This document shows, one piece after another, positions 15,200 to 34,584 of a DNA stretch of 64,000 nucleotides; the first letter of the stretch is position 1, and each line of letters starts with the position of its first letter. Location of the stretch: the NCBI GenBank assembly GCA_003567685.1, contig PWYW01000067.1:1-64000 (forward strand), read 5' to 3'. The stretch comes from Gammaproteobacteria bacterium. Lineage in GTDB: Bacteria > Pseudomonadota > Gammaproteobacteria > Xanthomonadales > Wenzhouxiangellaceae. Below the pieces are notes generated by a model. That model was not told the DNA's origin, searched no databases, and was given only the letters and a program-made list of their open reading frames with translations. The position numbers and the translations under genes are program-made.

Positions 15200-15700
15200 T
15201 CATCGGTCCGGCAAGCCCTCGAAACGATCAAAGAAAATAGGATCAGGCAGCGGTTCGCGGTCAATCGTGATCACGCCCGGCACCGGGCTGAATGGAGCAG
15301 GCCAGGTATCGACAAGAATGAAGTACTCCTGCCCTTCCTCAACATCAACCACCAAAGCCTTGCTGGCAGACGAATCGGCCACGCCCCCCACGCAGCTGCC
15401 ACCTGAAGTGGGGCATCCAGCATAGACAACAACGGCAGTCCAGGGTTGACCTTCATAGGCCACTGAGACCTCTCCAGTGAACGCTGCAGTGAATCGGAGC
15501 AACGCTTCATTTCCTCCGTAGTACACGGCGGAAACGCAATTCTCGGCATTGTCAGCTCGAATATCATTGCTGCCGGAATCAACCACCGGCGCCTGATACG
15601 GGAACGCCTCGATCAACTCAGCCTGCTCGCAAGTCGTCGCTCCCACCAGCAGGGGAATCGAAAGAGCGAAAACCATCAAGACTTTGATTAATTTGATCAT
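15200..15700 (-). CDS. Predicted exported beta-sandwich protein of unknown function ending in PIFFDRFEGLPDR
   Basis: Signal peptide MIKLIKVLMVFALSIPLLVGATTC; pre-peptidase C-terminal-like pattern (EGQEYFILVD); C-terminal tail shared with two other proteins in this window. Confidence 0.65.
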   Translation of the reverse strand: MIKLIKVLMVFALSIPLLVGATTCEQAELIEAFPYQAPVVDSGSNDIRADNAENCVSAVYYGGNEALLRFTAAFTGEVSVAYEGQPWTAVVVYAGCPTSGGSCVGGVADSSASKALVVDVEEGQEYFILVDTWPAPFSPVPGVITIDREPLPDPIFFDRFEGLPDR

Positions 15701-15893
15701 CACAGACTCCCTGACGTTCGCAACGAGCCACTTGCTCGCTTGTGCCCAATACACAACTTCATTTGACGTCAAACGCCAGGTGCCCGAATTGAGTTCGGTC
15801 AAATTTTGAGGACTGCATGGGCCTTCACCACGTTGACAGCCTGCTGGCATCCTCGTCCTTGCCTTTGATCTATGAAAGCAGTAAAGACTGTCA

Positions 15894-16901
15894 ATGAAAA
15901 CCCACGGTCAGCCAGTAAAACCAAGCCTGTCGCTCGCCACAGCGCTCCTGCTGTTCGCCCTCACAAGCTGGGCAAACAGCGACAGCGACGCGCTGTGGCA
16001 GCAGGCACTGGAAACTGATCGGCTGCATAGCCTGCTGGTTATGCACAAAGGCCAGGCGGTCGTTGAGCTGGAGCGCGCCGGCCCCGGCTTGTCCGCACCG
16101 GCCAACATCAAATCCGTCTCAAAGACGGTCCTTTCCATGCTGGGTGGCATGGCGATTGACCGGGGCATCATTGACGGCGTGGACAGCCTGCTTGTTGATC
16201 TACTCGGCGATCGCTTTCCCGACGACGCCACGCCGGGAGCCGAAACCATCACCTTCGGCCAGGCACTGTCCATGCAGGCCGGGCTGGAAAGTACATCGGG
16301 CCGCAACTATGGGCGCTGGGTCCAAAGCGATAACTGGGTCAACCATGCCTTGACCCGCCCGATGATCGACCAGCCGGGAGGCCGGATGATTTACTCGACA
16401 GGCGCCACCCACCTGGCTGCCGCCGCTTTGGTCGAGGCCAGCGGTCAAAGCCTCGCCGATTTGGCCCGCGACTGGCTCGGAGAGCCCCTAAACCTGCATA
16501 TTCCCGACTGGATGACTGATCCCCAGGGCATTCATTTCGGCGGCAACGAAATGCAGTTGAGCCCGAGAGCGCTGGCCCAGCTCGGTGAACTGTACCGTCT
16601 GGATGGTCAGATCAATGGACAACAGGTAATTTCATCCGACTGGATTGCGCAGTCCTGGCAAGCCAACGGCCGATCGCCCTGGACCGGCGACGACTACGGC
16701 TATGGCTGGTTCATCACCCATGTCAATGATCTGGACGTGTTTTACGGTCGCGGCTATGGCGGCCAGGCCTTGTTCGTGGTGCCGGAGGCCGAGTTGACCA
16801 TCGCCATCACCTCCAACCCGAATCCACCGTCGTCTGGCTGGCAGTTCCGGCAATTACTCACACTCGTCAACCTGGCCATTGACCACTATCACCGACACTG
16901 A
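15894..16901 (+). CDS. Serine hydrolase, class C beta-lactamase-like
   Basis: Signal peptide; SVSKTVLSMLGGMAIDRG (S-x-x-K), YSTGATHLAAA (Y-S/N) motifs. Confidence 0.87.
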   Translation: MKTHGQPVKPSLSLATALLLFALTSWANSDSDALWQQALETDRLHSLLVMHKGQAVVELERAGPGLSAPANIKSVSKTVLSMLGGMAIDRGIIDGVDSLLVDLLGDRFPDDATPGAETITFGQALSMQAGLESTSGRNYGRWVQSDNWVNHALTRPMIDQPGGRMIYSTGATHLAAAALVEASGQSLADLARDWLGEPLNLHIPDWMTDPQGIHFGGNEMQLSPRALAQLGELYRLDGQINGQQVISSDWIAQSWQANGRSPWTGDDYGYGWFITHVNDLDVFYGRGYGGQALFVVPEAELTIAITSNPNPPSSGWQFRQLLTLVNLAIDHYHRH

Positions 16902-16934
16902 CCACCCGCACCACAGCGGGTAAAAAGCGCTGAT

Positions 16935-16943
16935 TGCTATACT
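16935..16943 (+). promoter_or_regulatory. Candidate extended -10 promoter element (TGC-TATACT) upstream of hutU
   Basis: TGCTATACT; no convincing -35 at 17 bp, consistent with an extended -10. Confidence 0.4.
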
Positions 16944-16976
16944 CCAGACGTTAAGGATTTAATGTCAGGAGCTCTC

Positions 16977-18647
<1,671 letters not shown>

Positions 18648-18753
18648 TGTCGAGCGCACTTGTGCGCGAGGAGACCCATCGAAACCAGACCCTCGCCTTT
18701 CAGACATAGGTGCCCGATGCATCGCCCGCTAGTGGCTCGCTCCGTTGAAAGAA

Positions 18754-18924
18754 TCACCATTCGATGTTTACCGTCGCGCTGAACAATTCGCGATGGCTAT
18801 TCATTTCCGATGTCGCAGCAGTTACCCTGCGGGCGTGGCCCCCGGGGCTGGCGCCCAGCAGGGTGGCCAGGATGATCAGGCTGACAAGCGTGTTTGAGTG
18901 TGACATGGCTGTGTCCTTGTTCAT
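18754..18924 (-). CDS. Small predicted exported protein (56 aa)
   Basis: MNKDTAMSHSNTLVSLIILATLLGASPGGHARRVTAATSEMNSHRELFSATVNIEW; starts 7 nt after the Kelch gene stop, same strand. Confidence 0.4.
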   Translation of the reverse strand: MNKDTAMSHSNTLVSLIILATLLGASPGGHARRVTAATSEMNSHRELFSATVNIEW

Positions 18925-18931
18925 GACTGAA

Positions 18932-21643
18932 TCACTCGAAACGATCTGCGAAGATGCCATCTGGTAACTCGATTTCGTAGGGGAAGTACAGCCACATGCT
19001 GTCGCTGTAGTCAGTGTCCAAGCCACCCCAGACGATCATTTCACGGCCGGTCCAGACCGCGGTGTGGGCGTAGCGCGCGGGGGGCGCGTCGATGGTGCTG
19101 GTGGGCGCACCCCAGCTATTCTCGGCCGGATCGTAGCGGCCGCCGGTGTCTGTTAGGCTCAGGCCACCCCAGACGATCATTTCGCTGCCGGTCCAGACCG
19201 CGCTGTGTTGCGCGCGCCCGCTGGGCGCGTCGATGGTGCTGGTGGCTGTGCCCCAGCTGTCGGTGCCCGGGTTGTAGCGGCCGCCGGTGTTGCCGCCGCC
19301 ATCGCCACCCCAGACGATCATTTCGCTGCCGGTCCAGATCGCGCTGTGTTGGGTGCGCGCGCTGGGCGCGTCGATGGTATTGGTGGCCGTGCCCCAGCTG
19401 TCGGTGACCGGGTTGTAGCGGCCGCCGGTGTTGCCGCCACCATTGCCACCCCAGACGATCATTTCGCTGCCGGTCCAGATCGCGCTGTGGCCGAACCGGC
19501 CGTCGGGCGTGTCGACCGTGCTGGTGGGCGCGCCCCAGCTGTCGGTGAAGGCGTTGTAGCGACCGCCGGTGTTGAAGCCTGCGCCGCCGGCCTGGCCGCC
19601 CCAAACGATCATTTCGCTGCCGGTCCAGATCGCGCTGTGTTGAGTGCGCGCGCTGGGCGCGTCGATGATGCTGGTGGGCTTACCCCAGCTATCTGTGGCC
19701 GGGTTATAGCGGCCACCGGTGTTGTAGCGAGGGCCGCCAATGCCGCCCCAGACGATCATTTCGCTGCCGGTCCAGACCGCGCTGTGGGCCGCGCGCGCGG
19801 CGGGCACGCGGACGGTGCTGGTGGGTGGGCCCCAGCTATCAGTGTCGGGGTTGTAGCGCCCGCCGGTGTTGAAGTAACTGAGGTCTCCTCCGCCCCAAAC
19901 GATCATTTCGCTGCCGGTCCAGATCGCGCTGTGGCGGGTGCGCGCGCTGGGTGCGCCGTTGGTGCTGGTGGCCGTGCCCCAGCTATCAGTGTCCAGGTTG
20001 TAGCGCCCGCCGGTGTTGCCGCCGCCGCCCCAGACGATCATTTCGCTGCCGGTCCAAACCGCACTGTGGCCGCCGCGCGCGCCGGGCGCGCCGTCGGTGT
20101 TGATGGCTGCGCCCCAGCTATCGGTATCGGGGTCATAGCGGCGGCCGGTGTTGAGGGGAGCGCCGTCGAAGCCACCCCAGACGATCATTTCGCTACCAGT
20201 CCAGATCGCGCTGTGTTGGCTGCGCGCGCTGGGCGCGCCACTGTTGTTGATGGCCGGGCCCCAGCTGTCGCTGTCGAGGTCGTAGCGCCTGCCGGTGTTG
20301 AGGGAGGTGGAGCCGTCGGAGCCACCCCAGACGATCATTTCGCTGCCGGTCCAGACCGCGCTGTGACCACTGCGTACGCTGGGCGCGTTGCTGATGGCGG
20401 GGCCCCAGGTATTGGTGGCCGGGTTGTAGCGCCCGCCGGTGTTGGTCGGGGTGAAGGCGATGCTGCCACCCCAGACGATCATTTCGCTGCCGGTCCAGAC
20501 TGCGCTGTGGCCTCTGCGCGCGCTGGGTGCGCCGCTGATGCTGGTGGTTGCGCCCCAGCTGTCGATGGCCGGGTAGTAGCGGATGCCAGTGTTGACGATG
20601 TTTAGGAAGCTGCCCTCGTCGCCACCCCAAACGATCATTTCGCTGCCCGTCCAGACCACGCTGTGGAACTGGCGCCCCTCAAGCGGATGGGTTCGATGCT
20701 CCCAGGTATCGGCGGCCGGTGCACTAAGATCCATGGCCTGGCCTTTAATCGTCGGCAGTTTCAGGCCCTTTACGGGTGCTGACTCGAAGCTCACGGCATG
20801 CTGCCGGCGCTCGGCCCACCAATGGTCGAAGCTGCGCTTGGGCCAGCTACGGACCTGCACTTCCAGGCGATCGTCGCTTTTCGAGAGCAGGGTTTCCTGC
20901 ACGAAAGCGTGGGCGGTTTCGCGCAGCAGCGGGGCGCGGCGGGACGGCAGACCGGGCCGGTCGAATGCTTCGCGAGCGGCGCTCAAGCGCGCCCGTTCGG
21001 CGTCGAACTCTTCCGCGTCCAGCGTCAACTCTTGGGGGTCGCGCTCCATCGCCGATGTCTCGGCTTTGGAGGCAGCTCCTCGAACCAGCACCCACCGCTC
21101 CTCGCTGCCGCCGCTGGCTTCAATGTCGGCGATGCCCGCCCCGCCTGCCAATGCCGCTTCGGCTGCTTCCCGCAACGCGTCGTGCTGGCGTGCATCGGCC
21201 GCGTAGGCGGAGCGCAGTCGCTGCTGCACCAGCTGTGGCCGCGCCAGGCATTCGGCGATCAGGTTGGCGTCGTTGCCGAGCGCCTCGAAGCGCTTGCTCA
21301 AGCGATCCGGTGCGCGGGTGTTCTGGGCCATGCGGTTCAGTTCACGTTGCAGGCTGGCCGCGTCGATGGACTGGCCATAGTCCTGAAACAGCACGGCTTC
21401 CTGCCGCAACTGCGCTTCGACTCGTTCGCGCAACTGCGCATCGCTGAGCACGCTTTGGCGATCCGGCTTGGGTTCGGGATTCTGTTCCGGCCAGATCGTC
21501 TCCGACCAGCGGATGTCTTCCAGCGTAGACTGGCAGGCCAGGCGTTGCTCGAAACCCATCGCGCCAGCAGTCTGCGCCGACAGCGCCAGCAGCAGGCCAA
21601 CCAGGGCGATCTTCAGTTGTCGTGTGGTCATGAGGTTGGTCAT
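18932..21643 (-). CDS. Large exported Kelch-type repeat protein with helical SurA_N-like N-terminal region; C-terminus IELPDGIFADRFE
   Basis: Signal peptide KIALVGLLLALSAQTAGA; 12 copies of WTG(S/R)EMIVWGG; helical 'LGNDANLIAECLARPQLVQQRL' region. Confidence 0.8.
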   Translation of the reverse strand: MTNLMTTRQLKIALVGLLLALSAQTAGAMGFEQRLACQSTLEDIRWSETIWPEQNPEPKPDRQSVLSDAQLRERVEAQLRQEAVLFQDYGQSIDAASLQRELNRMAQNTRAPDRLSKRFEALGNDANLIAECLARPQLVQQRLRSAYAADARQHDALREAAEAALAGGAGIADIEASGGSEERWVLVRGAASKAETSAMERDPQELTLDAEEFDAERARLSAAREAFDRPGLPSRRAPLLRETAHAFVQETLLSKSDDRLEVQVRSWPKRSFDHWWAERRQHAVSFESAPVKGLKLPTIKGQAMDLSAPAADTWEHRTHPLEGRQFHSVVWTGSEMIVWGGDEGSFLNIVNTGIRYYPAIDSWGATTSISGAPSARRGHSAVWTGSEMIVWGGSIAFTPTNTGGRYNPATNTWGPAISNAPSVRSGHSAVWTGSEMIVWGGSDGSTSLNTGRRYDLDSDSWGPAINNSGAPSARSQHSAIWTGSEMIVWGGFDGAPLNTGRRYDPDTDSWGAAINTDGAPGARGGHSAVWTGSEMIVWGGGGNTGGRYNLDTDSWGTATSTNGAPSARTRHSAIWTGSEMIVWGGGDLSYFNTGGRYNPDTDSWGPPTSTVRVPAARAAHSAVWTGSEMIVWGGIGGPRYNTGGRYNPATDSWGKPTSIIDAPSARTQHSAIWTGSEMIVWGGQAGGAGFNTGGRYNAFTDSWGAPTSTVDTPDGRFGHSAIWTGSEMIVWGGNGGGNTGGRYNPVTDSWGTATNTIDAPSARTQHSAIWTGSEMIVWGGDGGGNTGGRYNPGTDSWGTATSTIDAPSGRAQHSAVWTGSEMIVWGGLSLTDTGGRYDPAENSWGAPTSTIDAPPARYAHTAVWTGREMIVWGGLDTDYSDSMWLYFPYEIELPDGIFADRFE
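19024..20665. repeat. 12 tandem coding repeats with conserved CCCCA(G/A)ACGATCATTTCGCTGCCGGTCCAGA core (Kelch blades)
   Basis: Direct reading of repeated core in the + strand and repeated WTGSEMIVWGG in the protein. Confidence 0.92.
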
Positions 21644-21801
21644 TTCTTGATTCTCCCGTGGAGTTTCGCGTCTGGTTTCTTGTCCTCAGTGCGCTGCGGA
21701 GACCGGGCTCTGGTTTTGTCGGCCACGCGTCTTCGTTCCGCAAACAAGGTTTCAAGCATGTCGGCCTCCTGGCGGGCCGGTCGATCGCCGTGCTTGTTCA
21801 T
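21640..21801 (-). CDS. Possible small basic protein (53 aa) translationally coupled to the Kelch gene
   Basis: MNKHGDRPARQEADMLETLFAERRRVADKTRARSPQRTEDKKPDAKLHGRIKK; GAGG upstream of its ATG; stop overlaps the Kelch start as ATGA (21640-21643). Confidence 0.35.
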   Translation of the reverse strand: MNKHGDRPARQEADMLETLFAERRRVADKTRARSPQRTEDKKPDAKLHGRIKK

Positions 21802-21862
21802 GGTGCAATCCTCGGCAGGCATGGCAATGCGGTAGCATCGATTGTCATGTGTTGGCTAGTCA

Positions 21863-21910
21863 CTGTCGCGCAGTCATGTTGTAAGCTTTGACGCTGATGT
21901 TGCGCGACAG
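21863..21910. promoter_or_regulatory. Perfect 10-bp inverted repeat CTGTCGCGCA-N28-TGCGCGACAG in the divergent Kelch/HTCS intergenic region
   Basis: Arms 21863-21872 and 21901-21910 read directly. Confidence 0.6.
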
Positions 21911-21986
21911 CTAAAGGCCGGCTTCGATTCCTGGATGGGCAGGGCCCAGGTTTGTCGCTTGTATTAATCGAGGGAGATGCACGCGT

Positions 21987-24900
21987 GTGAAGGTTGCCAG
22001 GGCCAGAGTGCTGCTGTTCATGCTGTTGTGCCAGTGTGCAGGCGCCTCTGGCCTGGCGCATTACCAGCACCAGACCTGGACGATTGACGACGGCCTGCCG
22101 GTCAATGTCGTCAATGCTTTGCTGCAGGATGGCAACGGTTATCTATGGCTGGCCACCAACGACGGCTTGGTGCGCTTCGACGGCATCCGGTTCACGGTCT
22201 TCAACACGGTTTCTCATCCGGAAATGCAGAGCAACCGCATCCTCGGCCTGGTCGAGGGGTCGGACGGGTCGCTGTGGTGGTGGACCGAGCAGATGCACCT
22301 GGTCTCCATGTCCGGAGACCGGGTCCGCCATTACACCGAGGCGGACGGACTGCCCAGCCGCGATGTCCAGCAGATCCTGCGTGATCGTCGCAATCGCTTG
22401 TGGTTTGCCACGCGCGATGGCCTGGCCTATCTGGACGGTGAGTCGATCAAGACACTGGGCTCAGGTGCGGTGCGTGGCGACATCACCTGGTTTCAGCCCA
22501 TGGACGGCGGTGATGTCTGGTTTCGCAGCGCTCAGCCATCTGGCATCCATCGTTACCGGGATGGCGTCGTTGTCAGCGTGTTGCCCGATCAGGGCGAAAG
22601 TTATACGACCCAATTCAAGCAAACCCGATCTGGCGAGCTGCTTGTGGGCAACGATGGGCGGGTCTGGCGACATGACGGTGAGACGATGATGGCGCTGGCC
22701 GACGGCTGGCCCGACTTCGCCGTGGCCAGCAGCTTCGACACTGACCCCTCCGGCCGGCATTGGGCGATCACTCAGGATCATGGGGTCTTTGTGCTTGACC
22801 ATGGCGTCTGGGCCTTGCGCATGACCGATATCCGTACACCGCGCAGTGGCCGCGCCTTTATGCACGATGCCGAGGGCGGCTTCTGGATCGTGACCGATCA
22901 TGCGGTCTATCGCGATGGCAAGCAGGTCTTTCGTGCCGAGAGCGAAATCAGTGACGCGCTGATCGACGACGAAGGCAATGTCTGGCTGAGCCTGTCCCGC
23001 GGCGGACTGAAGCGGCTGCAAGCCATGCCGCTCAGAACCTGGGGGCAGGACGAGGGCTTACCCGAAACGAACATTTATCCGGTGATGGCGGCCAGCGACG
23101 GATCGGTCTGGATCGGCAGCTTTGGCGGTGGCCCCGCGCGCTGGGTCGATGGCCGTTTCGAAACAGGCTTTGAACTGCCGGAGCCATCAATCACGGGCTT
23201 TACGCTCAGCCTGATTGAGCGCAGGGACAGCACTTTGCTGGCCTGTGTGACCCGCCAGATTCTGCGCCTGGTCCCGGGACAGAATCGCTTCGAAGCCTTG
23301 AAGCCGGCCATTGATCGCCAGGCCATGGCCTGCTATGCCCTGTACGAGGATCGCCACGAGCGCCTATGGGCAGGGACCGACAAGGGCATTTTCGTGCTCG
23401 ACGGCGACCAATGGCAGGTGGTTCTCGACGATGAACGCAGCCAGACCAACTATGTGCGCCATTTTGCCGAGGCGCCGGATGGCAGTCTGTGGATGGCGAC
23501 CAACGGCCAGGGCATCCTGGTTCTGCATGATGGCGAGTTGACTCGACTCGGCCGCGCCCAGGGTCTGGTCAGCGACAATATCCGCGCCCTGTGGTTCGAC
23601 CCGGCCGCCGATGGCATGGTGCTGTGGGTAGGATCGGAGGACTCGGGGCTGCAGCGCCTGGCTCTTGCCCCGGGCGAGCACATGCCGCATTCGATCACGA
23701 CCGTTCAGCAGCACCACGGGCTGTTCGACAATGTCATTCACGTCATTCTTCCCGACGAACAGGGCAGGTTATGGATGAATTCCAACCGCGGCATCTTCTG
23801 GGTCGAGCAGGCCGAGCTGGAGGCCTTCGCCGCCGGCGAGATTGAACACATCCAATCGATTGCCTACGGCTCCGAGGACGGCTTGCGCAATCGCGAGGGC
23901 AATGGCGGCATCCAGCCGGCCGGCGCGGTGGATGCGCACGGCGTGCTGTGGTTTCCGACCCAGGCCGGCCTGGTCCAGGTTGATCCGGCGAAAATTGCTC
24001 GCAACCCGCGGCCGGCTCGTCCGGTGATCGAGTCGGTCAGCGTGCACGATGCGCTCATTACCCACCCCGGCAACGGCACCCTGGCACTGGCCCGGGACGA
24101 ACGGGATATTCGCATCCGTTACACCGGTATCAGTCTGGCTGATCCAGAAGGTGTGCAGTTTCGCTACCGCCTGGTCGGTTACGATCGGGAATGGTACACA
24201 ACGACCGGGCGCGAAGCCGTCTACACCAACCTTCCCTCCGGCGAGCATCGATTCCAACTACTGGCCGCCAATGGCGATGGTGTGTGGAGCGACAGCCCGG
24301 TTGGCCTGAGCCTGCGCGTCGCGCCCTACCCCCATGAAACGCTCTGGTTTCGCGGTCTGCTGGTATTAAGCCTGGGATTGGCCATGCTGGCGCTCATGCG
24401 CTGGCAAGCGGCACGAGGCCGCCAGCGCCAGCGTGAACTGGAACTGCTGATCTCCGAGCGCACTGGCCAGTTGCTTGAAGAGAAAGAACGCACCGAACGC
24501 CAGGCCAAGGACTTGCAGAAACTCGACCAGGCCAGAACACGTTTCTTCACCAACATCTCGCATGAGTTTCGAACCCCGCTGACCCTGATCATGGGGCCGA
24601 TTCAGGAGTTTCTGGGACGCCAAGAGATCAGTACCAAGGACCGCGAAGGGCATGAAATGGTGCTGCGCAACTCCAAGTACCTGTTGCGGCTGATCAACCA
24701 GATTCTCGACCTCGCCCGTCTGGAAGCCGGCGAGATTCAGTTGCAGGCCACCCATGGCGACATGGCCGAATTGGTCCGTGACATCGTCACCCTGTTCAAG
24801 CCGATCTGCCAGCGCCAGGATATTGCTCTGTCGATGAAGATCGAGCCGGACAGCATTCCGCTGGTCTTCGATGCACAACGCATGGAACAGGTGGTCGCCA

Positions 24901-26051
24901 ACCTGCTGTCCAATGCCATCAAGTTCACGCCCGCCGGTGGCGAAGTCCGCCTGGAACTGAATGAGCAGGGCGACACGGTCAGGCTGATGGTGATTGATAC
25001 AGGCATTGGGATCGCGGTTGAGGAGCAGGCATTGATATTCAAGCGTTTCTACCAGGCTGATACTGCACAGAGCCGATCCGGCGAAGGTACCGGCGTGGGC
25101 CTGTCGCTGGTCAGGAACCTGGTTGAACTGCACGGTGGCGAGGTCGAATTGCAGTCAGCGCCCGGCAAGGGAAGTTGTTTCACTGTCCTGTTGGATCGAT
25201 CGATCCTGGCCGCGCATCACACGGTCAACTCGCCAACCCGGTCTGAAGCCGCTCCGACGCTGGATGTGCCAAACGAAGCCGCCCGGAAGGATTCGGATTT
25301 GCCACAGTGCGATCGCCCCCTCGTTCTGGTCGCCGATGACAACGCCGACCTGCGTGCTTTCATCAGCACTGTACTCTCCGAGGACTTTCGAGTGGTCGAG
25401 GCCGCGGACGGTCGCCAGGCCATTCGGCGCTGTCGGGAATGCCTGCCGGATCTGGTTCTGCTTGATGTGATGATGCCCGAGATGGACGGCTTTGCAGCGG
25501 GGCGGGCGATTCAGTCCGATGACATCCTTCGTGGCATACCAATGCTGTTTCTGACCGCGCGGGGTGGGCTGGATGATCAGCTTCAGGGGCTCGAAAGCGG
25601 GGCGGTTGCTTACCTGACCAAGCCTTTCGAGCCGGGTCTGCTGCAGGCACAGGTCAGAAGCCTGATTGCACAACAGATACGCTTGCGCGAACGGTTGCGT
25701 CTGACCAGGCCTGAGATCAAACGGCCGTCTGATCCATTTCAGGCGCGACTGGTCGAGGTGCTGGGCGAGAACTTCATGGATGCCGAGTTCGGCGTGGCCG
25801 AGCTGGCCGAGGCCGTGCACCTTGATCGCAGCCAGTTGTTTCGCAAACTCAAAAGCAGCTCAGGTCTGTCGCCTTCGAAATACATTCAGAACTTTCGGCT
25901 GGACCGAGCTGCCGAACTGTTGGAAAGCGGCGCATGGACGAGCGTCTCCCAGGTTGCCTACGCCTGCGGTTTCAACAGCCTGTCCTGGTTCAGCAAGTGT
26001 TTTCGAGAGCGCCTGGGGCAAACACCCGGCGAACGGCTCAAACAAGACTGA
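21987..26051 (+). CDS. Hybrid two-component system regulator (HTCS): Reg_prop beta-propellers, Y_Y_Y domain, TM, HisKA, HATPase, receiver, AraC-type HTH
   Basis: Many 'G-x-LW-x-x-T-x-x-G' propeller motifs; FFTNISHEFRTPLTLIMGP (H box); LVLLDVMMPEMDG (receiver); VAYACGFNSLSWFSKCFRERLGQTPGERL (AraC). Confidence 0.93.
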   Translation: MKVARARVLLFMLLCQCAGASGLAHYQHQTWTIDDGLPVNVVNALLQDGNGYLWLATNDGLVRFDGIRFTVFNTVSHPEMQSNRILGLVEGSDGSLWWWTEQMHLVSMSGDRVRHYTEADGLPSRDVQQILRDRRNRLWFATRDGLAYLDGESIKTLGSGAVRGDITWFQPMDGGDVWFRSAQPSGIHRYRDGVVVSVLPDQGESYTTQFKQTRSGELLVGNDGRVWRHDGETMMALADGWPDFAVASSFDTDPSGRHWAITQDHGVFVLDHGVWALRMTDIRTPRSGRAFMHDAEGGFWIVTDHAVYRDGKQVFRAESEISDALIDDEGNVWLSLSRGGLKRLQAMPLRTWGQDEGLPETNIYPVMAASDGSVWIGSFGGGPARWVDGRFETGFELPEPSITGFTLSLIERRDSTLLACVTRQILRLVPGQNRFEALKPAIDRQAMACYALYEDRHERLWAGTDKGIFVLDGDQWQVVLDDERSQTNYVRHFAEAPDGSLWMATNGQGILVLHDGELTRLGRAQGLVSDNIRALWFDPAADGMVLWVGSEDSGLQRLALAPGEHMPHSITTVQQHHGLFDNVIHVILPDEQGRLWMNSNRGIFWVEQAELEAFAAGEIEHIQSIAYGSEDGLRNREGNGGIQPAGAVDAHGVLWFPTQAGLVQVDPAKIARNPRPARPVIESVSVHDALITHPGNGTLALARDERDIRIRYTGISLADPEGVQFRYRLVGYDREWYTTTGREAVYTNLPSGEHRFQLLAANGDGVWSDSPVGLSLRVAPYPHETLWFRGLLVLSLGLAMLALMRWQAARGRQRQRELELLISERTGQLLEEKERTERQAKDLQKLDQARTRFFTNISHEFRTPLTLIMGPIQEFLGRQEISTKDREGHEMVLRNSKYLLRLINQILDLARLEAGEIQLQATHGDMAELVRDIVTLFKPICQRQDIALSMKIEPDSIPLVFDAQRMEQVVANLLSNAIKFTPAGGEVRLELNEQGDTVRLMVIDTGIGIAVEEQALIFKRFYQADTAQSRSGEGTGVGLSLVRNLVELHGGEVELQSAPGKGSCFTVLLDRSILAAHHTVNSPTRSEAAPTLDVPNEAARKDSDLPQCDRPLVLVADDNADLRAFISTVLSEDFRVVEAADGRQAIRRCRECLPDLVLLDVMMPEMDGFAAGRAIQSDDILRGIPMLFLTARGGLDDQLQGLESGAVAYLTKPFEPGLLQAQVRSLIAQQIRLRERLRLTRPEIKRPSDPFQARLVEVLGENFMDAEFGVAELAEAVHLDRSQLFRKLKSSSGLSPSKYIQNFRLDRAAELLESGAWTSVSQVAYACGFNSLSWFSKCFRERLGQTPGERLKQD

Positions 26052-26238
26052 TGGAACGGACCAGCGCGCTGACAGGCCATTCGACCTTAATAGATTGCGA
26101 CTTGAAGCGAAAGCATGACAAGAGCATGGCCGAGGCATACACCGTAATTAACACGCCCACCTACCATCCGACCTCCCCGCGCAGACTGTGTCCGGCTGTT
26201 AATATTGCCGCACCTGCCAGGGAGTCTTATCGGTTTAC

Positions 26239-27747
26239 ATGGGCCAATCAGAAACACACGCAACCGTCAGCGTCGACACGCTTTTTTCCGACCTGGATCA
26301 ACGCTGCCAGGCGCTGCGAGACAATCCCGAGCCAGTCATCCGATCCCGAGCCGTGGTCGAGGCCGCACTGGAACGTGACGAAGCAATCTACGGCGTCAAT
26401 ACCGGCTTTGGCGCGCTGGCCAGCCGGCGAATCGATGCCGACCAGCTCGGCCAACTGCAGCGCAACCTGCTGCTGAGCCACGCCTGCGGCACGGGCGAGC
26501 CAGTGCCGGTGGAAATTTCGCGCTTGATGCTCAAGCTCAAGATTCATGCCCTTGGGCTGGGCCAGTCCGGGATTTCGCTACCGGTCTTTGAGCAACTGCT
26601 GGCGCTGGCCGAGCACGACATCGTGCCCTTCATTCCCTCGCGCGGTAGCGTCGGCGCCTCGGGCGATCTTGCCCCCCTGGCCCACATGAGCCTGCCGCTG
26701 ATTGGCCATGGCCAGTGCTGGAAACCGGATTTTTCGGGGCCCGAACCGGCCGCCGAAGCACTCAAGCGCCATGGTCTGGAACCGGTTGAACTGGCCGCCA
26801 AGGACGGTCTGGCGCTGATCAACGGTACCCAGCTGATGCTGGCCTATGGTGCCTTCGTGCTCAACCGAGCGCTGCACCTGGTCGAAGCCGCCGACATCCT
26901 TGGCGCCATGAGCCTGGAAGCCCTGCAGGGCTCGGCGCGACCCTTTGATGCCCGCGTTCATGCCGTGCGCCCGCACCCAGGCCAGGTTCGGGTGGCTAAA
27001 AACATTCGCCGCTTGCTGAGCGACTCGGAGATTCTCGAATCCCACCGCGGCTGCGGCAAGGTGCAAGACCCTTACTGCCTGCGCTGCATTCCCCAGGTGC
27101 ACGGCGCCAGCCGCGACGCGCTCAGCCACTGCGTGGCGGTCTTCGAGCGCGAGTTGAACGCGGTGACCGACAACCCGCTGGTATTCGACAATGGCGATAT
27201 CGTCTCGGGCGGCAACTTCCACGGCCAGCCGCTGGCCCTGGCGCTGGACTACGCCGCCATCGCCCTGGCCGAACTGGCCAGCATGTCCGAACGCCGCACC
27301 TACCTGCTGCTGGAGGGCCACGACGGCCTGCCCAAGTTGCTGATGAAAGACACCGGCATTAACTCGGGCTTCATGATCCCGCAGTACACCGCGGCGGCCC
27401 TGGTCAGCGAAAACAAGGTGCTGTGCCACCCGGCCAGCGTGGATTCGATTCCCACCTCACTGGGCCAGGAAGACCATGTCTCGATGGGTTCGATTGGCGC
27501 GCTGAAGCTTTTGCCGGTGCTGCACAATGTCGAACACGTACTGGCGGTGGAAATGCTGACGGCCAGCCAGGCGCTGGATTTCCGCGCCCCGCTGAAGCCT
27601 GGCCGTGGCGTGCGCCTGGCCCATCAGGCGGTGCGTCGCGAGGTCCGCCATGCCGATGAAGACTATGAAGTAGGCGCCGACATTGATGCCTGCACCCGCT
27701 TGTTGAAAAGCCGCGATTGGGTTGACGAGGTAAGCAAAGGCGCATGA
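26239..27747 (+). CDS. hutH: Histidine ammonia-lyase
   Basis: GVNTGFGALASRRI, GSVGASGDLAPLAHM (MIO-forming ASG), NPLVFDNGDIVSGGNFHGQPLALALD. Confidence 0.97.
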   Translation: MGQSETHATVSVDTLFSDLDQRCQALRDNPEPVIRSRAVVEAALERDEAIYGVNTGFGALASRRIDADQLGQLQRNLLLSHACGTGEPVPVEISRLMLKLKIHALGLGQSGISLPVFEQLLALAEHDIVPFIPSRGSVGASGDLAPLAHMSLPLIGHGQCWKPDFSGPEPAAEALKRHGLEPVELAAKDGLALINGTQLMLAYGAFVLNRALHLVEAADILGAMSLEALQGSARPFDARVHAVRPHPGQVRVAKNIRRLLSDSEILESHRGCGKVQDPYCLRCIPQVHGASRDALSHCVAVFERELNAVTDNPLVFDNGDIVSGGNFHGQPLALALDYAAIALAELASMSERRTYLLLEGHDGLPKLLMKDTGINSGFMIPQYTAAALVSENKVLCHPASVDSIPTSLGQEDHVSMGSIGALKLLPVLHNVEHVLAVEMLTASQALDFRAPLKPGRGVRLAHQAVRREVRHADEDYEVGADIDACTRLLKSRDWVDEVSKGA

Positions 27748-28730
27748 ACGACGTTCTCGCTCTGGCAGGGCAAAACCTGCTGTCCCCGGTTGTGCTGGCC
27801 TTCGTGCTGGGGCTGGTCGCCGCCCTGGCCCGGTCAGATCTGAGCATTCCCGAGGCCATGGCCAAGGGCCTGTCGATCTACCTGCTGTTTGCGATTGGCT
27901 TGAAAGGTGGCGTTGAAGTTGCCGCCACCGGCTTGAACGCCCAGATTGGTCTCGGGCTGGTGGTCGGCGTTGTCCTGTCGGCCGCGCTGCCCCTGCTGGC
28001 GTACGTGCTGTTGCGCCTGATGAGTGGCCTGGACCCGATCAACGCCGCCGCCGTGGCCGGCCATTACGGCTCGATTTCCATCGTCACTTTTGTTGCCGCC
28101 AGCTCGCTGCTGCAGTCGGTCGGGGTGAGCTTCGAAGGCTGGCTGGTGGCCGTGGCCGCCGTGATGGAGGCCCCGGCCATCCTCACCGCGCTGTGGCTGG
28201 CCAGCCGGGCAGGCAATACCGGAAACGGGAATGGCAACGGCGGCATGCCCTGGCGCGAGATCAGCCTGAACGGCTCGATTGTGCTGCTGATCGGTGCCTT
28301 TCTCATCGGCTGGGCCGTGGGCCCGGCCGGCATGGCCGAGGTCGAGGGCTTCTTCGTTTCACCGTTCAAGGGCATCCTCTGCCTGTTCCTGCTCGATATG
28401 GGCCTGGTGGCCGGTCGCGGGCTTCGCAACAGCGCTCACCATTTGCGCCCAGGCCTGGTCGGCTTCGGCATTGTCATGCCCGTGGTTGGCGGTTTGATCG
28501 GCGCCGTGGCCGGCTGGCTGATTGGCCTGTCGACCGGCGGCGTGGCCATCCTTGCCACCCTGTCGGCCTCGGCCTCCTACATTGCCGTGCCGGCGGCCAT
28601 GCGCGTGGCCCTGCCACGCGCCAATCCGGCCATCTACCTCACGCTGGCCCTGGGCGTGACCTTTCCGTTCAACCTGGCTTTCGGGATCACGCTGTACCTG
28701 CTGATGGCCCGCTGGCTGACTGGAGGCTGA
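27744..28730 (+). CDS. sbtA: SbtA-like sodium-dependent bicarbonate transport family permease
   Basis: NLLSPVVLAFVLGLVAALARSDLSIPEAMAKGLSIYLLFAIGLKGGVEVA is typical of the SbtA family; ATGA overlap with hutH. Confidence 0.86.
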   Translation: MNDVLALAGQNLLSPVVLAFVLGLVAALARSDLSIPEAMAKGLSIYLLFAIGLKGGVEVAATGLNAQIGLGLVVGVVLSAALPLLAYVLLRLMSGLDPINAAAVAGHYGSISIVTFVAASSLLQSVGVSFEGWLVAVAAVMEAPAILTALWLASRAGNTGNGNGNGGMPWREISLNGSIVLLIGAFLIGWAVGPAGMAEVEGFFVSPFKGILCLFLLDMGLVAGRGLRNSAHHLRPGLVGFGIVMPVVGGLIGAVAGWLIGLSTGGVAILATLSASASYIAVPAAMRVALPRANPAIYLTLALGVTFPFNLAFGITLYLLMARWLTGG

Positions 28731-28732
28731 CC

Positions 28733-29044
28733 ATGGAGACTCACCGCGCCAAGCGCATTGAAATCATGATTGAAACCCCGGCCCTGAGACGCGTGCGCCG
28801 GGCGCTGGAAAATGCCGGCGTCCGCGGCTACTCGATCCTTCCGGTCGAGGGCGGCTACGGGCGGACGGGTTCCTGGTCCAGTGAGGGCGAGGTCAGCATT
28901 GCCTCGGACATGGACATGATCTGGTGCATCGTCGCCGAAGAACGGGCCGAAGCGGTCGTGGATGCCGTGTTCAGTGTGGTCGACCGGCAAATTGGCGTTG
29001 TCACCATCTCCGACTGCGAAGTGGTTCGACGCGAACGTTTTTAG
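28733..29044 (+). CDS. SbtB-like PII-superfamily regulatory protein
   Basis: METHRAKRIEIMIETPALRRVRRALENAGVRGYSILPVEGGYGRTGSW...; 103 aa; 2 nt after sbtA stop. Confidence 0.7.
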   Translation: METHRAKRIEIMIETPALRRVRRALENAGVRGYSILPVEGGYGRTGSWSSEGEVSIASDMDMIWCIVAEERAEAVVDAVFSVVDRQIGVVTISDCEVVRRERF

Positions 29045-29060
29045 GGCGCCGAATTCTGCC

Positions 29061-30314
29061 ATGCCGGTTCTGACCAATATCGCCCAGCTCTACACCGTGC
29101 CGCCCGATGGCGGCGCGGACTGCGTCGAGCCCATAGCCGACGCCGCGCTGGCCTGGCAAGACGGTCGCATCACCTGGGTTGGCCCGGAAGCTGAGCTGCC
29201 GGGCGAATTTCAGGATGAACCGCACCATGATGCCGGCAGCCGGATCGTCATCCCCGGCCTGATCGACTGCCACACCCACCTGTGCTTTGGCGGCTGGCGC
29301 GGCGACGAATTCGCCGCCCGCCTGGCCGGCGCCTCCTACCAGGACATCCTCGCCGCCGGCGGCGGCATCAACAGCACCGTAACGGCTACGCGCGCGGCAA
29401 GCGCGGAGGAGCTGGCCATGAAAGCCGCTACCGTGCTCAGCGACATGGCCCGGCTGGGTGTGACCACGGTCGAGGCCAAATCCGGCTACGGGCTGAACAC
29501 CGCCGCCGAACTGAAACAGCTGGAGGTCTATCGCCAGCTGAACCAGACCCAGCCGCTGGACATCATCCCGACTTTCCTTGGCGCCCACCTGGTCCCTGTC
29601 GAATACCGCGAGCGGCGAGCCGACTACATCAACTTGCTGTGCGAGGAAATGATCCCCGCCGTGGCCGAGCAGCAACTGGCCCGGTTCTGTGATGTGTTCA
29701 TCGAGGAATCGGCCTTCACCCTGGACGAAGGCCGCCGCATTCTCGAGTGCGCCAAGCGCCATGGGCTGGGCCTGAAAATCCATGCTGACCAGTTGTCCTC
29801 AGGCGGCGGCGCCGGCCTGGCGGCCGAGCTGGGTGCCGTGTCGGCCGAACACCTGGAATACGCCAGCCAAGCGGATATCGCCGCCATGGCCCAGGCCGGC
29901 ACCGTGGCCGTCAGCCTGCCGTTGGCCTCGATGTATCTGAAAGAACCCTTTCTGCCAGCGCGCCCCTGGATTGATGCTGGCGCGCGGGTTGCCGTGGCCA
30001 CCGATTTCAACCCCGGCTCGGCGCCCAGCTACCACCTGCACCTGGCCATGACCCTGGCCTGCGTCCACCAGCAAATGACGCCCGCCGAAGTGCTGCGCGG
30101 TGCCACCAGCCACGCCGCCCGCGCCATCGACCTGCACCACGATCGTGGCAGCCTGCTACCTGGCTACCTGGCCGACTTCACCGTGATCGACGCCCCCGAC
30201 ATCAATCACTGGCTCTACCACTTCCGCCCCAATGCCTGCTGCTTTACCGTCAAGTCCGGGCAGATTATCTGGCCCACTAGCGCAGCAGAAGCACTGGTAT
30301 CGTGCTGCTCCTGA
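29061..30314 (+). CDS. hutI: Imidazolonepropionase
   Basis: VIPGLIDCHTHLCFGGWRGDEFAARLAGASYQDILAAGGGINSTV; KSGYGLN; HADQLSSGGG. Confidence 0.96.
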   Translation: MPVLTNIAQLYTVPPDGGADCVEPIADAALAWQDGRITWVGPEAELPGEFQDEPHHDAGSRIVIPGLIDCHTHLCFGGWRGDEFAARLAGASYQDILAAGGGINSTVTATRAASAEELAMKAATVLSDMARLGVTTVEAKSGYGLNTAAELKQLEVYRQLNQTQPLDIIPTFLGAHLVPVEYRERRADYINLLCEEMIPAVAEQQLARFCDVFIEESAFTLDEGRRILECAKRHGLGLKIHADQLSSGGGAGLAAELGAVSAEHLEYASQADIAAMAQAGTVAVSLPLASMYLKEPFLPARPWIDAGARVAVATDFNPGSAPSYHLHLAMTLACVHQQMTPAEVLRGATSHAARAIDLHHDRGSLLPGYLADFTVIDAPDINHWLYHFRPNACCFTVKSGQIIWPTSAAEALVSCCS

Positions 30315-31161
30315 GAACGCTGGTGGTGGTGCTACCGACAATCAGGTGGCGGATGCGCGAGTGACCGTAGGCGCCCATGACCAGCAGGTCAATGCCCTGC
30401 TCACCGATCTGATCGTTAATGACCTGCTCGGCATTGCCCGGCACCCGGGCGATGTTTACCTTGAATCCGGCCTGGGCCAGTTGCGTCTGCGCCCAGGTCA
30501 GGCTTTCAGTCAGCGCCGGGGACTCGTTCCCGGCGGCGATCAAATGGCAATCCAGCCCCTTGAGCAGCGGGCTAATGCAGACCATCTCGACGCATTTGCG
30601 GGTGGTCTTGCTGCCATCAAAGGCAATGCCAAAACGGTTGATCGGACGGAATTTGCGCGAGGTGACCAGCAGCGGACGATGTACGCTTCGGACCACCCGC
30701 TCAAGATTGGCGCCAAGGTGCCCACGGTTGAAATCGGCCGCTTCGCCACGCTTGCCAATCACGAACAGGCGCACGCCCTCTTCAAGTTCCGTCAGTGCCT
30801 TTGCCAGTGGCCCGTGACGTTGCAAGCTGTCAGGGTTGACCGCACCGGCCTTACTCGCCCGGCCCTTGGACTGCTCGAGCAGCGCGCGGCCTTGCTGCAT
30901 GGCCAAACGGGCTCGCTCGGCATCCAGTGCCGCCAACTGCTCCAGCAGATCGGTGCCGGTATCCATGCCAATGTTGCCGCTGTAATCGGCCTTGGCTGGC
31001 TTGCCGGGCTGGCGATCCAGTACATGCAGGCAAACCAGATCGGCGTCGAGGCGCTTTGAGGCCCAGGCCGCGTGATCGACCACCGATTCGGTATACACCG
31101 AGGCATCAAGACAGACCATGACCTTGCCATCGGCGGGAATGATGTAGGTGTTCTTGCTCAT
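30277..31161 (-). CDS. Universal stress protein with two UspA-like domains
   Basis: Two UspA-like halves; LLVMGAYGHSRIRHLIVGSTTTSVLRSSTIPVLLLR C-terminal ATP-binding motif. Confidence 0.9.
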   Translation of the reverse strand: MSKNTYIIPADGKVMVCLDASVYTESVVDHAAWASKRLDADLVCLHVLDRQPGKPAKADYSGNIGMDTGTDLLEQLAALDAERARLAMQQGRALLEQSKGRASKAGAVNPDSLQRHGPLAKALTELEEGVRLFVIGKRGEAADFNRGHLGANLERVVRSVHRPLLVTSRKFRPINRFGIAFDGSKTTRKCVEMVCISPLLKGLDCHLIAAGNESPALTESLTWAQTQLAQAGFKVNIARVPGNAEQVINDQIGEQGIDLLVMGAYGHSRIRHLIVGSTTTSVLRSSTIPVLLLR

Positions 31162-31175
31162 CGCGCTTCTCCTGA

Positions 31176-32657
31176 TCAGTGGCCAAGCAGCTTGTCGGCA
31201 TCCGGCTTGTCGTGCACGCCCAGTCTATCGACCATGGTGCGGCTGGCCTCGCTCATACCGACCAGATCGATCTCGACGCCCTCGCGTCGGAACTTGAGAA
31301 TGACACGATCCAGGGCACCCACGGCACTCAAGTCCCAGAAGTGCGCGGCGCTGACGTCAATCCTCACCCGTTCGATCACCTCGCGGAAATCGAAGGCGGC
31401 CAGGAAATCATCGGCCGAGGCAAAAAACACCTGGCCAGTAACCGTGTAGCGGCGGGTTTCGCCATCCTCATCCAGGCCTTTTTCAACCTGCATCACCTGG
31501 CTGACCTTGCGGGCAAAACCCAGTGCCGATAGCAGCACGCCCGTCAGCACGCCCTTGGCCAGGTCGTGCGTGGCCACGGTGACGATCACCGTGCCGAGCA
31601 TGACCAGGCTGGACGTCTTGGGATGGTGCTTGAGATCGGCAATCGATTGCCAACTGAAGGTACCGATGGACACCATGATCATCACCGCCACCAGCGCGGC
31701 CATCGGGATCATGCCGACGTAGTCGCTCAGGAATACCACCATCACCAGCAAAACCACCCCGGCCACCAGGGTGGACAAGCGACCACGACCACCGGACTTC
31801 ACGTTGATGACCGACTGGCCAATCATGGCGCAACCGGCCATGCCACCAAAAAACCCCGAAACGATATTGGCAATGCCCTGCCCTTTGGCCTCGCGATGCT
31901 TGTCGCTGGGGGTGTCGGTCAGGTCATCGACAATCTGCGCGGTCAGGAAGGATTCAAGCAAGCCCACCACCATCAGCGTCAGCGATACCGGCAGGATGAT
32001 CCACAAGGTCTCCAGCGTCCACGGAATATCCGGCAGCAGGAAGTTGGGCAGCGCATCCGGCAGTTCACCCTTGTCGCCCACCGTCGGCACCTGAATGCCA
32101 AAGACCACCGCGGCCAGCGTCAGCAGCACGATCGCGATCAACGGGGACGGAATGGCCCGGGTCAGGCGCGGCAGGCCGTAGATGATGACGAGGCCAATGA
32201 CCACCATGGGATAGACCGCCGGCGGCACGTTGATCAACTCCGGCACCTGGGCCAGGAAGATCAGGATGGCCAGCGCGTTGACGAAACCCGTGATCACCGA
32301 GCGCGACACAAAGCGCATCAGCTCGGCCACCTTCAGGTAACCGGCAATGATCTGCAGCAGCCCCGTCAGCAGCGTGGCCGCCAGCAGGTACTCCAGGCCA
32401 TGATCGCGAACCAGGGTCACCATCAACAAGGCCATCGCACCGGTCGCCGCCGAAATCATCCCCGGGCGCCCACCAGTGAACGCAATCACCACGGCGATAC
32501 AGAACGAGGCATACAGGCCAACCTTGGGGTCGACGCCGGCAATCAGCGAGAAGGCGATGGCTTCCGGGATCAGCGCCAGCGCCACCACCAGCCCGGCCAG
32601 CACATCTGCGCGCACATTGGAAAACCAGTCGCGGCGAATCGAATCCATCAATTTCAT
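31176..32657 (-). CDS. SulP family anion transporter with STAS domain
   Basis: [62 protein letters not shown]-terminal STAS. Confidence 0.94.
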
Positions 32658-32846
32658 GAAAAACCTTGCAGCCGCCACGTCCATGGACCGGCGGATAATT
32701 CAAAAAACGGGCATTCGGGCCAGGAAGCGGCCCAAACGCAGCTGAGGGAGGGTCGGCATCATAGCACCGCCAGCCGCCGGACTCGCTCAAGGCCTGGCCA
32801 ATGCTGGCTGATCAAGGCTCTTGCTAGTGGGCCATGCGGCAAATTA

Positions 32847-32861
32847 GGCGTTCAGAACGCC
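32847..32861. promoter_or_regulatory. Perfect interrupted palindrome GGCGTTC-A-GAACGCC in the divergent SulP/FG-GAP intergenic region
   Basis: Direct reading. Confidence 0.45.
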
Positions 32862-32931
32862 AGGGCCTTCAGTGGCACTCATGCCTTCAGTTGGGTTATG
32901 TTCTTTTTACTGACTACCAAAGGGGAGCGTC

Positions 32932-34584
32932 ATGACACAGGCATATCTGGCACTTGTGCAAGGCCTCAGCGCATGCCGAGCAAACATCCTGACACAATGC
33001 TCGGGCGTTGTACTTCTCCTGCTGGCCATGCTGACGATCACCTTGAGTGCTCATGCAGCGGCTGGTGACGGTGACGCAACAAATCCGGCTGCGAATTCCG
33101 ACCGACAGGCGACCATGCAACAGCCGCCGCTGACACAGATTGCTTATGCCAAAGCATCGAATACCGGGGCGGACAACTTTTTCGGATTCTCGGCGGCCGC
33201 CAGCGGCAATACGGTCGCCATCGGCGCTATCGGTGAGTCCAGTGCGGCAACCGGCATCGACGGAAACCAGAACAATGCTGGCGCAATGGCTTCGGGGGCG
33301 GTCTATGTCTTGACTGCCTCATCGGAGGGGACGTGGGAACAACAAGCCTACGTCAAGGCCTCGAATACCTCAGAGGGTTATTTGTTCGGCTGGTCAGTGG
33401 CAATGTCTGGCGATACCCTGGTGGTTGGTTCCCCCTATGAGGCCAGTGCGGCGACCGGAGTCAACGGCGACCAGAGTGACACCAGTGCCATCCTGGCTGG
33501 TGCCGTTTATGTCTTTGTCCGCAACCAGCAGGGTAATTGGTCGCAGCAAGCGTATATCAAGGCCTCGAACCCCAGCCCCCTCAACCTCTTTGGCGCGTCA
33601 GTCGCCATTTCCGGCGACACGCTCGTGGTCGGTTCACCGATGGAAAACAGCAATGCCACCGGTGTAGATGGTGATCAACAAAACAATGACGCCCAGGACG
33701 CAGGCGCCGCCTATGTGTTCGTGCGCGATGGCCAGGGTGTCTGGACACAACAAGCCTATCTGAAAGCCTCCAACACGGCGCCGGAGCAGTTTTTCGGGAC
33801 CCGTGTCGCGGTATCCGGCAACACGGTCGCGGTGTCTGCAACCGGTGAGAGCAGTGCCGCGACGGGCGTCAACGGCGATCAGGACAATACGGACGCGCCA
33901 GGCGCCGGAGCCGTTTACGTTTTTACCCGAGACAGCGGAGACAGCTGGTCACAACAAGCCTACGTCAAGGCATCCAATACCGGTGAGGAGCATGTCTTCG
34001 GCGGGGGGCTGGCCATCGAGGGCGATACCCTGGCCGTCGGTGCTGCTGGCGAGAATAGTGACGCCACCGGCGTCGGCGGCAACCAGAACAATACCAATGC
34101 ACCGAATGCTGGCGCGACCTACGTTTTCACTCGTGATGGCGCGGGAGAATGGTCACAGCAGGCCTATATCAAGGCCTCCAACACCGACGAAGATCAGGGT
34201 TTTGGTGCTTCGATTGCCCTTAACGGTGGCCGTCTGCTGGTTGGGGCCGTGGGCGAAAATAGCAGCGCAACCGGAATCAATGGTGATCAGAACAATGCCG
34301 ATGCCCCAGGTTCCGGCGCAGCCTACCTGTTCGAGCGCGCCGGTTCCGACCAGTGGTCGCAGCAAGCCTACATCAAGGCCTCGAATACAGGGGAATTCGA
34401 TGTCTTCAGTCACTCGCTGGCGTTGTCAGACCAGGTGCTGGTCGTTGGGGCGGTTGGGGAAGACAGCTCCGCTACCGGCATCGATGGCAATCAGGACCAA
34501 GATAACAATCCGACCGAAGACTCGGGCGCTGCGTATATTTTTGCCGGGGAACAGATCTTTCGCGATCGTTTCCAATCCCCCTGA
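32932..34584 (+). CDS. Exported FG-GAP/integrin-alpha-like repeat protein (7 repeats), C-terminus EQIFRDRFQSP
   Basis: Signal peptide; seven repeats of Y-x-KASN...FG...SGDTLVVG...ATG-x-DGDQ-N...GA-x-YVF. Confidence 0.82.
   Translation: MTQAYLALVQGLSACRANILTQCSGVVLLLLAMLTITLSAHAAAGDGDATNPAANSDRQATMQQPPLTQIAYAKASNTGADNFFGFSAAASGNTVAIGAIGESSAATGIDGNQNNAGAMASGAVYVLTASSEGTWEQQAYVKASNTSEGYLFGWSVAMSGDTLVVGSPYEASAATGVNGDQSDTSAILAGAVYVFVRNQQGNWSQQAYIKASNPSPLNLFGASVAISGDTLVVGSPMENSNATGVDGDQQNNDAQDAGAAYVFVRDGQGVWTQQAYLKASNTAPEQFFGTRVAVSGNTVAVSATGESSAATGVNGDQDNTDAPGAGAVYVFTRDSGDSWSQQAYVKASNTGEEHVFGGGLAIEGDTLAVGAAGENSDATGVGGNQNNTNAPNAGATYVFTRDGAGEWSQQAYIKASNTDEDQGFGASIALNGGRLLVGAVGENSSATGINGDQNNADAPGSGAAYLFERAGSDQWSQQAYIKASNTGEFDVFSHSLALSDQVLVVGAVGEDSSATGIDGNQDQDNNPTEDSGAAYIFAGEQIFRDRFQSP

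Follow-up and report, generated by a model that had tools for sequence, protein, structure and literature searches.

Many unrelated exported proteins in one lineage of Gammaproteobacteria end in the same short tag, and the genomes with this tag mostly also encode a second type II secretion system (T2SS), here called T2SS-B. The window, a stretch of 64,000 nucleotides from a member of the Wenzhouxiangellaceae (assembly GCA_003567685.1, contig PWYW01000067.1), encodes three tagged proteins. It is nearly certain that the tag is real and is carried by dozens of unrelated exported proteins in its lineage. We consider it reasonably likely (probability about 0.6) that the tag is a linear sorting signal for T2SS-B, bound by the recognition parts of that system, the likeliest binder being the PDZ domain of its GspC (GspC-B) or its secretin (GspD-B). 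The occurrence of the tag across the order, the host-dependent choice between its R and G versions, and the co-occurring second T2SS go beyond the initial annotation of the window.

That annotation had placed the same tail on three proteins of different folds, and we found all three at those positions:

15200..15700, minus strand: exported protein 1, 166 amino acids, with a signal peptide and the tail PLPDPIFFDRFEGLPDR (window list of open reading frames [ORFs] and Pfam scan)
15218..15238, minus strand: tag IFFDRFE of protein 1, followed by GLPDR and the stop (DNA pattern match)
18932..21643, minus strand: exported protein 2, 903 amino acids, with a signal peptide, a Kelch beta-propeller and the tail IELPDGIFADRFE, with the tag at its end
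18935..18955, minus strand: tag IFADRFE of protein 2, with the stop immediately after it (DNA pattern match)
32932..34584, plus strand: exported protein 3, 550 amino acids, with a signal peptide, FG-GAP_2 repeats and the tail GEQIFRDRFQSP, with the tag at its end
34555..34575, plus strand: tag IFRDRFQ of protein 3, followed by SP and the stop (DNA pattern match)

The longest ORF of protein 1 extends to 15850, and a signal-peptide-like start, MIKLIKVLMVFALS, lies at 15700. Protein 1 has no Pfam match above the cutoff and a weak galactose-binding-like match. The folds are therefore unrelated, as had been stated: none above the cutoff, a Kelch propeller, and FG-GAP repeats.

We searched for DNA encoding F-x-D-[RG]-F-[EQ] and used the reversed pattern as a control; the matches are to this DNA pattern rather than to curated genes, and gene calls came from a home-made caller. 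In the window's genome there were 36 matches versus 1 for the reversed pattern, and 25 versus 0 when a preceding hydrophobic residue and a nearby stop were required. Most of the first 30 matches in this genome terminate ORFs, 0 to 9 residues upstream of the stop. Among the ORFs of all fetched loci, the tag was at most 15 residues from the stop in 168 of 193 distinct matches and internal in 25. The Sec or Tat signal peptide of T2SS substrates was found in 69 of 80 tagged proteins versus 407 of 1114 untagged neighbors (p = 1e-18), by a crude and lenient rule for which the contrast between tagged and untagged proteins is what counts. Thus, there is the C-terminal excess on exported proteins upon which the earlier proposal depended.

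The consensus of the tag is D-x-[ILV]-F-x-D-[RG]-F-E, with 0 to 14 residues between it and the stop. Of the 168 tags, 124 have the Asp at three residues before the Phe, and 165 have Glu as the final residue. The LPD that the initial annotation saw before the motif is mostly this conserved Asp, and the motif is near the stop but is not necessarily last. The 168 tags are encoded by 131 distinct 18-mers (55 with R and 76 with G), which argues for selection on the peptide.

Some tags are arranged differently. In genome G036, a protein that is DUF1800-like by eye (L149:6516-8217, minus strand) has DPIFNDRFED near its N terminus and not at its C terminus, and in two tandem CSLREA-type paralogues (L148:5665-10281), an extra domain of 87 residues comes after the tag. 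Loci L125 and L187 have further internal tags with a domain after them. In L040 (genome G035), one tail has a doubled, degenerate tag, AIFLDGFEGDVIFKNGYD. In L116:1831-2617 (minus strand), and also in L010, the tag is followed by sequence resembling the start of a formylglycine-generating-enzyme domain, an arrangement that is possibly a gene fusion or a frameshift.

By Pfam, the carriers of the tag include beta-helix, FG-GAP, Kelch, DUF11, subtilase, M14, M64, and GSDH proteins, among others. Because beta-helices, propellers, proteases, and DUF11 proteins all terminate in it, the tail cannot be the final strand of one fold. Tagged proteins also match NCBIfam models for choice-of-anchor Q and D, CSLREA, rhombotarget A, and MXAN_5453 proteins. 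Elsewhere, members of these families terminate in GlyGly-CTERM, MYXO-CTERM, or other signals. No Pfam or NCBIfam model covers the tail, and neither the string DGFE nor a motif matching the tail turned up in a literature search; the initial annotation, too, had named no family for it.

In 121 genomes from the GTDB order to which the window's genome belongs, the families divide into those where the pattern is common and those where it stays at background level, with raw matches reaching 102 per genome. Outside the order, the stricter pattern gave 0 matches in 221 of 229 other Gammaproteobacteria and 1 or 2 in the remaining 8, where several of the matches were clearly not C-terminal.

Two T2SSs have to be distinguished in these genomes. 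T2SS-A is a full Xps-like operon that is also present in the tag-poor genomes whose operon was read. T2SS-B has its gspC-D-E-F genes in a compact cluster flanked by rhlB-trxA-rho on one side and ftsEX on the other, with gspG-H-I-J at a separate locus. Its parts were assigned with NCBIfam and Pfam: GspC with an HR domain; GspD, GspE, GspF, and GspG over the cutoff; and the pseudopilins GspG to GspJ. GspK, GspL, and GspM of T2SS-B were not located. GspC-B has HR and PDZ domains and is related to OutC, PulC, and EpsC. Its AlphaFold model has the PDZ order of strands and helices, with a low overall predicted template modeling (pTM) score that we attribute to flexible linkers. The GspC-like protein of T2SS-A gave no PDZ match in a profile scan, and XpsC has a single helix in place of the PDZ domain (PMC11981180).

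In a panel of 35 genomes, the tag-positive genomes carry two GspD secretins over the cutoff (in G100 as fragments only), and the tag-poor genomes carry one, except for G001 (none) and G080 (two). We rejected the idea that just any T2SS can be the partner of the tag: a T2SS secretin is present in 14 of the 15 tag-poor panel genomes, so a T2SS alone (T2SS-A) is insufficient for tags. The presence of GspC-B, by contrast, was clearly bimodal when its profile was run over the 121 genomes. With tag-positive genomes defined as those with 4 or more tags, tags were found in 62 of 65 genomes with GspC-B versus 4 of 56 without it (Fisher p = 1e-25, ancestry ignored). The association held when labels were shuffled at the genus level within families (p = 0.0002 to 0.0004), which accounts for ancestry in part. 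In 40 of 43 genera, the presence of tags matches that of T2SS-B, and the agreement recurs within families f2, f11, and f9 and partly within f8. In the genomes tested for them, GspD-B and GspG-B accompany the tags in the same way as GspC-B. Thus, the tag and T2SS-B share a phylogenetic profile, with genuine exceptions in both directions.

The tag also differs between genera in a concerted manner. Position 4 of the core is Arg in 497 of 549 matches in the genus of the window's genome and in 28 of 221 matches in four sister genera of the same family, where Gly is typical; part of the minority matches are background. The Arg that the initial annotation recorded therefore characterizes this one genus and not the tag in general. 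In 15 homologous pairs, tagged proteins differ at exactly position 4, each with its host's version. For example, protein 2 ends in GIFADRFE, and its homologue in genome G008 (51% identity over 491 amino acids) ends in DILFKDGFE. Because dozens of unrelated proteins switched together, the change points to one shared recognizer with altered specificity, and it would be hard to account for without a single such recognizer.

The PDZ domain of GspC-B changes with the same switch. In 12 of 12 genomes of the R-tag genus, the alpha-B helix of this PDZ domain ends with an acidic residue (LF-x-D), and the next loop carries another (G-E/D). The loop residue is acidic in at most 2 of 35 G-tag PDZ domains, and the helix-end residue is acidic in more of them. 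These residues would fit a charge match with the Arg of the tag. Genome G080, a tagless member of the R-tag genus, has Gln and Arg at the two positions (loci L260 and L259) and a four-residue insertion before the alpha-B helix. It is a small genome that has kept both T2SSs while its GspC-B PDZ domain has diverged.

We propose that proteins exported by Sec carry the tail as a short linear signal for sorting. Once the signal peptide had been removed and the protein had folded in the periplasm, recognition parts of T2SS-B would bind the flexible tail, D-x-[ILV]-F-x-D-[G/R]-F-E, by strand addition in a groove, and the bound protein would then cross the outer membrane. The likeliest binder is the GspC-B PDZ domain or, alternatively, the domains at the N terminus of GspD-B. 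GspC connects the secretin with the inner membrane platform, and docking is suspected to take place at the second periplasmic domain of GspC (PMC11981180). The EpsC PDZ domain of Vibrio is required for secretion of VesB and not for that of most substrates (PMC12369372). Also in favor of this proposal, tagged proteins include families that elsewhere bear GlyGly-CTERM or MYXO-CTERM, and proteins with these signals travel via T2SS (PMC11980579). The initial annotation had suggested a C-terminal tag for secretion, anchoring, or processing; a C-terminal tag on exported proteins is supported, and as to its function, we infer from genomes that T2SS-B transports the tagged proteins, with the tag as its signal and the PDZ domain as the binder of the tag. 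The fuller statement, that this is a portable signal about nine residues long, that its reader is the GspC PDZ domain (or GspD) of a dedicated T2SS, and that signal and reader coevolved from DGFE to DRFE in one genus, stands in our estimate at even odds.

Several observations weigh against this proposal. Internal tags make up about 13% of the ORF matches, and the tags do not lie at a fixed distance from the stop. A free C-terminal carboxylate is therefore not essential, and strand addition is likelier than a classical PDZ reading of the free carboxyl end. Genomes G058 (about 11 to 13) and G088 (about 6 to 7) have genuine C-terminal tags, within L367-L391, and no GspC, GspD, or GspG of T2SS-B was detected in either; these genomes may have lost T2SS-B recently, with their tags still to decay. 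The absence of GspC-B from G047 and G109 is of another kind and is probably an assembly gap, since other pieces of T2SS-B are retained (a B-type GspG in both and, in G109, a GspD-B fragment at a contig end). In the opposite direction, T2SS-B is present with 0 tags in G080, where a variant tag was sought and none was found, 0 in G073, and 1 in G059. Relatives of GspD-B occur outside the order, where the tag is absent. The R/G switch and the PDZ change are a single evolutionary event. The T2SS was the only machinery profiled across genomes, and another coinherited gene could be the true reader. Finally, protease activity in Wenzhouxiangella AB-CW3 is cell associated and not released (PMC7691419).

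This last observation would suit a different role for the tag, namely, a surface retention or processing signal read by a sortase- or protease-like factor in the outer membrane or periplasm, with T2SS-B only delivering the proteins or being coinherited. The tagged choice-of-anchor and CSLREA families, which elsewhere end in anchoring signals, and the tags of G058 and G088 without T2SS-B are also consistent with such a role. We nevertheless consider it unlikely, because neither a transmembrane segment nor a Cys nor a basic cluster is present in the tail, and often just 0 to 2 residues follow the tag, leaving little to cleave off. Moreover, gene neighbor clustering around tagged genes in six genomes recovered only tagged paralogues, regulators, and housekeeping genes and thus no linked processing enzyme, whereas tags and T2SS-B agree across nearly all genera. 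The possibility that the tag has no sorting role, being instead a cap that serves stability or folding, or a relic multiplied by gene duplication, draws on the fact that some tagged proteins are paralogues. We regard it as highly improbable, given that the core is near invariant while codons and families vary and that the unrelated proteins of one genus have all changed it together.

A further alternative is a special case of sorting by T2SS-B and overlaps with it: the tag would be read by a part other than the PDZ domain, such as the N0-N1 domains of GspD, the pseudopilus tip, or GspL/M. GspD-B and GspG-B track the tags as GspC-B does, and in Pectobacterium, flexible loops jointly form a composite secretion signal (PMC7949064). 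However, T2SS-A and T2SS-B differ most plainly in GspC, which lacks the PDZ domain in the former and has it in the latter. This PDZ domain also changes with the R/G switch, in a residue comparison that covered GspC. A reader outside the PDZ domain thus appears doubtful to us, although less so than a retention signal.

One short motif at the C terminus of many unrelated Sec-exported proteins per genome is the pattern of a many-to-one sorting tag, which is a known kind. The initial annotation had set the tail apart from PEP-CTERM, LPXTG, and GlyGly-CTERM signals, and direct reading of the tails, which consist of the core plus 0 to 14 residues with no helix, upholds this. The helix and basic cluster of the tripartite signals (PEP-CTERM, LPXTG, GlyGly-CTERM, and MYXO-CTERM) are absent, and the NCBIfam families listed for tagged proteins include no model of a C-terminal signal. 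Exosortase, sortase, and rhombosortase were set aside because the tail lacks a helix, a judgment made on the tail without a search for their genes. The GlyGly-CTERM/rhombosortase system, exemplified by VesB, similarly places a C-terminal tag on many unrelated Sec-exported proteins, shares some families with the present tag (rhombotarget A-like matches and choice-of-anchor), and has carriers that use a T2SS, with VesB needing the EpsC PDZ domain (PMC12369372). In contrast, the present tag has no transmembrane helix or basic end and implies no intramembrane protease, and the PDZ-dependent information of VesB lies in an immunoglobulin fold rather than in a short peptide. MYXO-CTERM/myxosortase is likewise a lineage-restricted, T2SS-dependent C-terminal tag on dozens of surface proteins (PMC11980579); its tags, too, can be internal, and two of our tagged proteins match the MYXO-CTERM-anchored family MXAN_5453. 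The present tag differs in having no invariant Cys, helix, or Arg-rich end, and no lipidation is implied. Lacking the defining feature of the GlyGly-CTERM and MYXO-CTERM signals, it is not a member of either, although it may serve the same purpose.

PEP-CTERM/exosortase is also a many-to-one C-terminal signal on similar exported families, but its tripartite layout is missing here. The C-terminal domains of the type IX secretion system (T9SS) of Bacteroidota resemble the tag as C-terminal signals for outer membrane translocation without a membrane helix. They are folded domains of about 80 residues, whereas the present tag is about 9 residues long, occurs in Gammaproteobacteria, and is linked to T2SS genes. 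No family of T9SS C-terminal domains is among the listed Pfam and NCBIfam matches of tagged proteins, T9SS genes themselves not having been searched for. Closest in machinery are the structural signals of T2SS substrates (Out/Pel3 and Eps/VesB), flexible surface segments thought to be recognized by GspC or GspD; those are substrate specific and composite, whereas the tag is one common linear motif. Our literature search found no description of a short, linear, helix-free tag tied to a T2SS, nor of any conserved T2SS signal.

In 2025, substrate recognition by the T2SS was still called unknown, with no conserved signal for outer membrane crossing identified (PMC11981180). The tag may be the common export signal so far not found, in this case for a second T2SS. 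If so, recognition could be tested with a nine-residue peptide and one PDZ domain, and the natural R/G swap between genera would be a ready-made specificity experiment. The tag would also predict the secretome of many uncultured bacteria and be usable as a secretion handle.

Near tagged genes in 5 of 6 genomes, we observed a gene resembling those for extracytoplasmic function (ECF) sigma factors together with Ser/Thr kinase genes (family by eye). In the window's genome these are at L121:255 and L112:2441, with homologues at L177, L179, L194, L206, L138, L145, and L154. These ECF sigma-like and kinase genes could regulate the tagged proteins.
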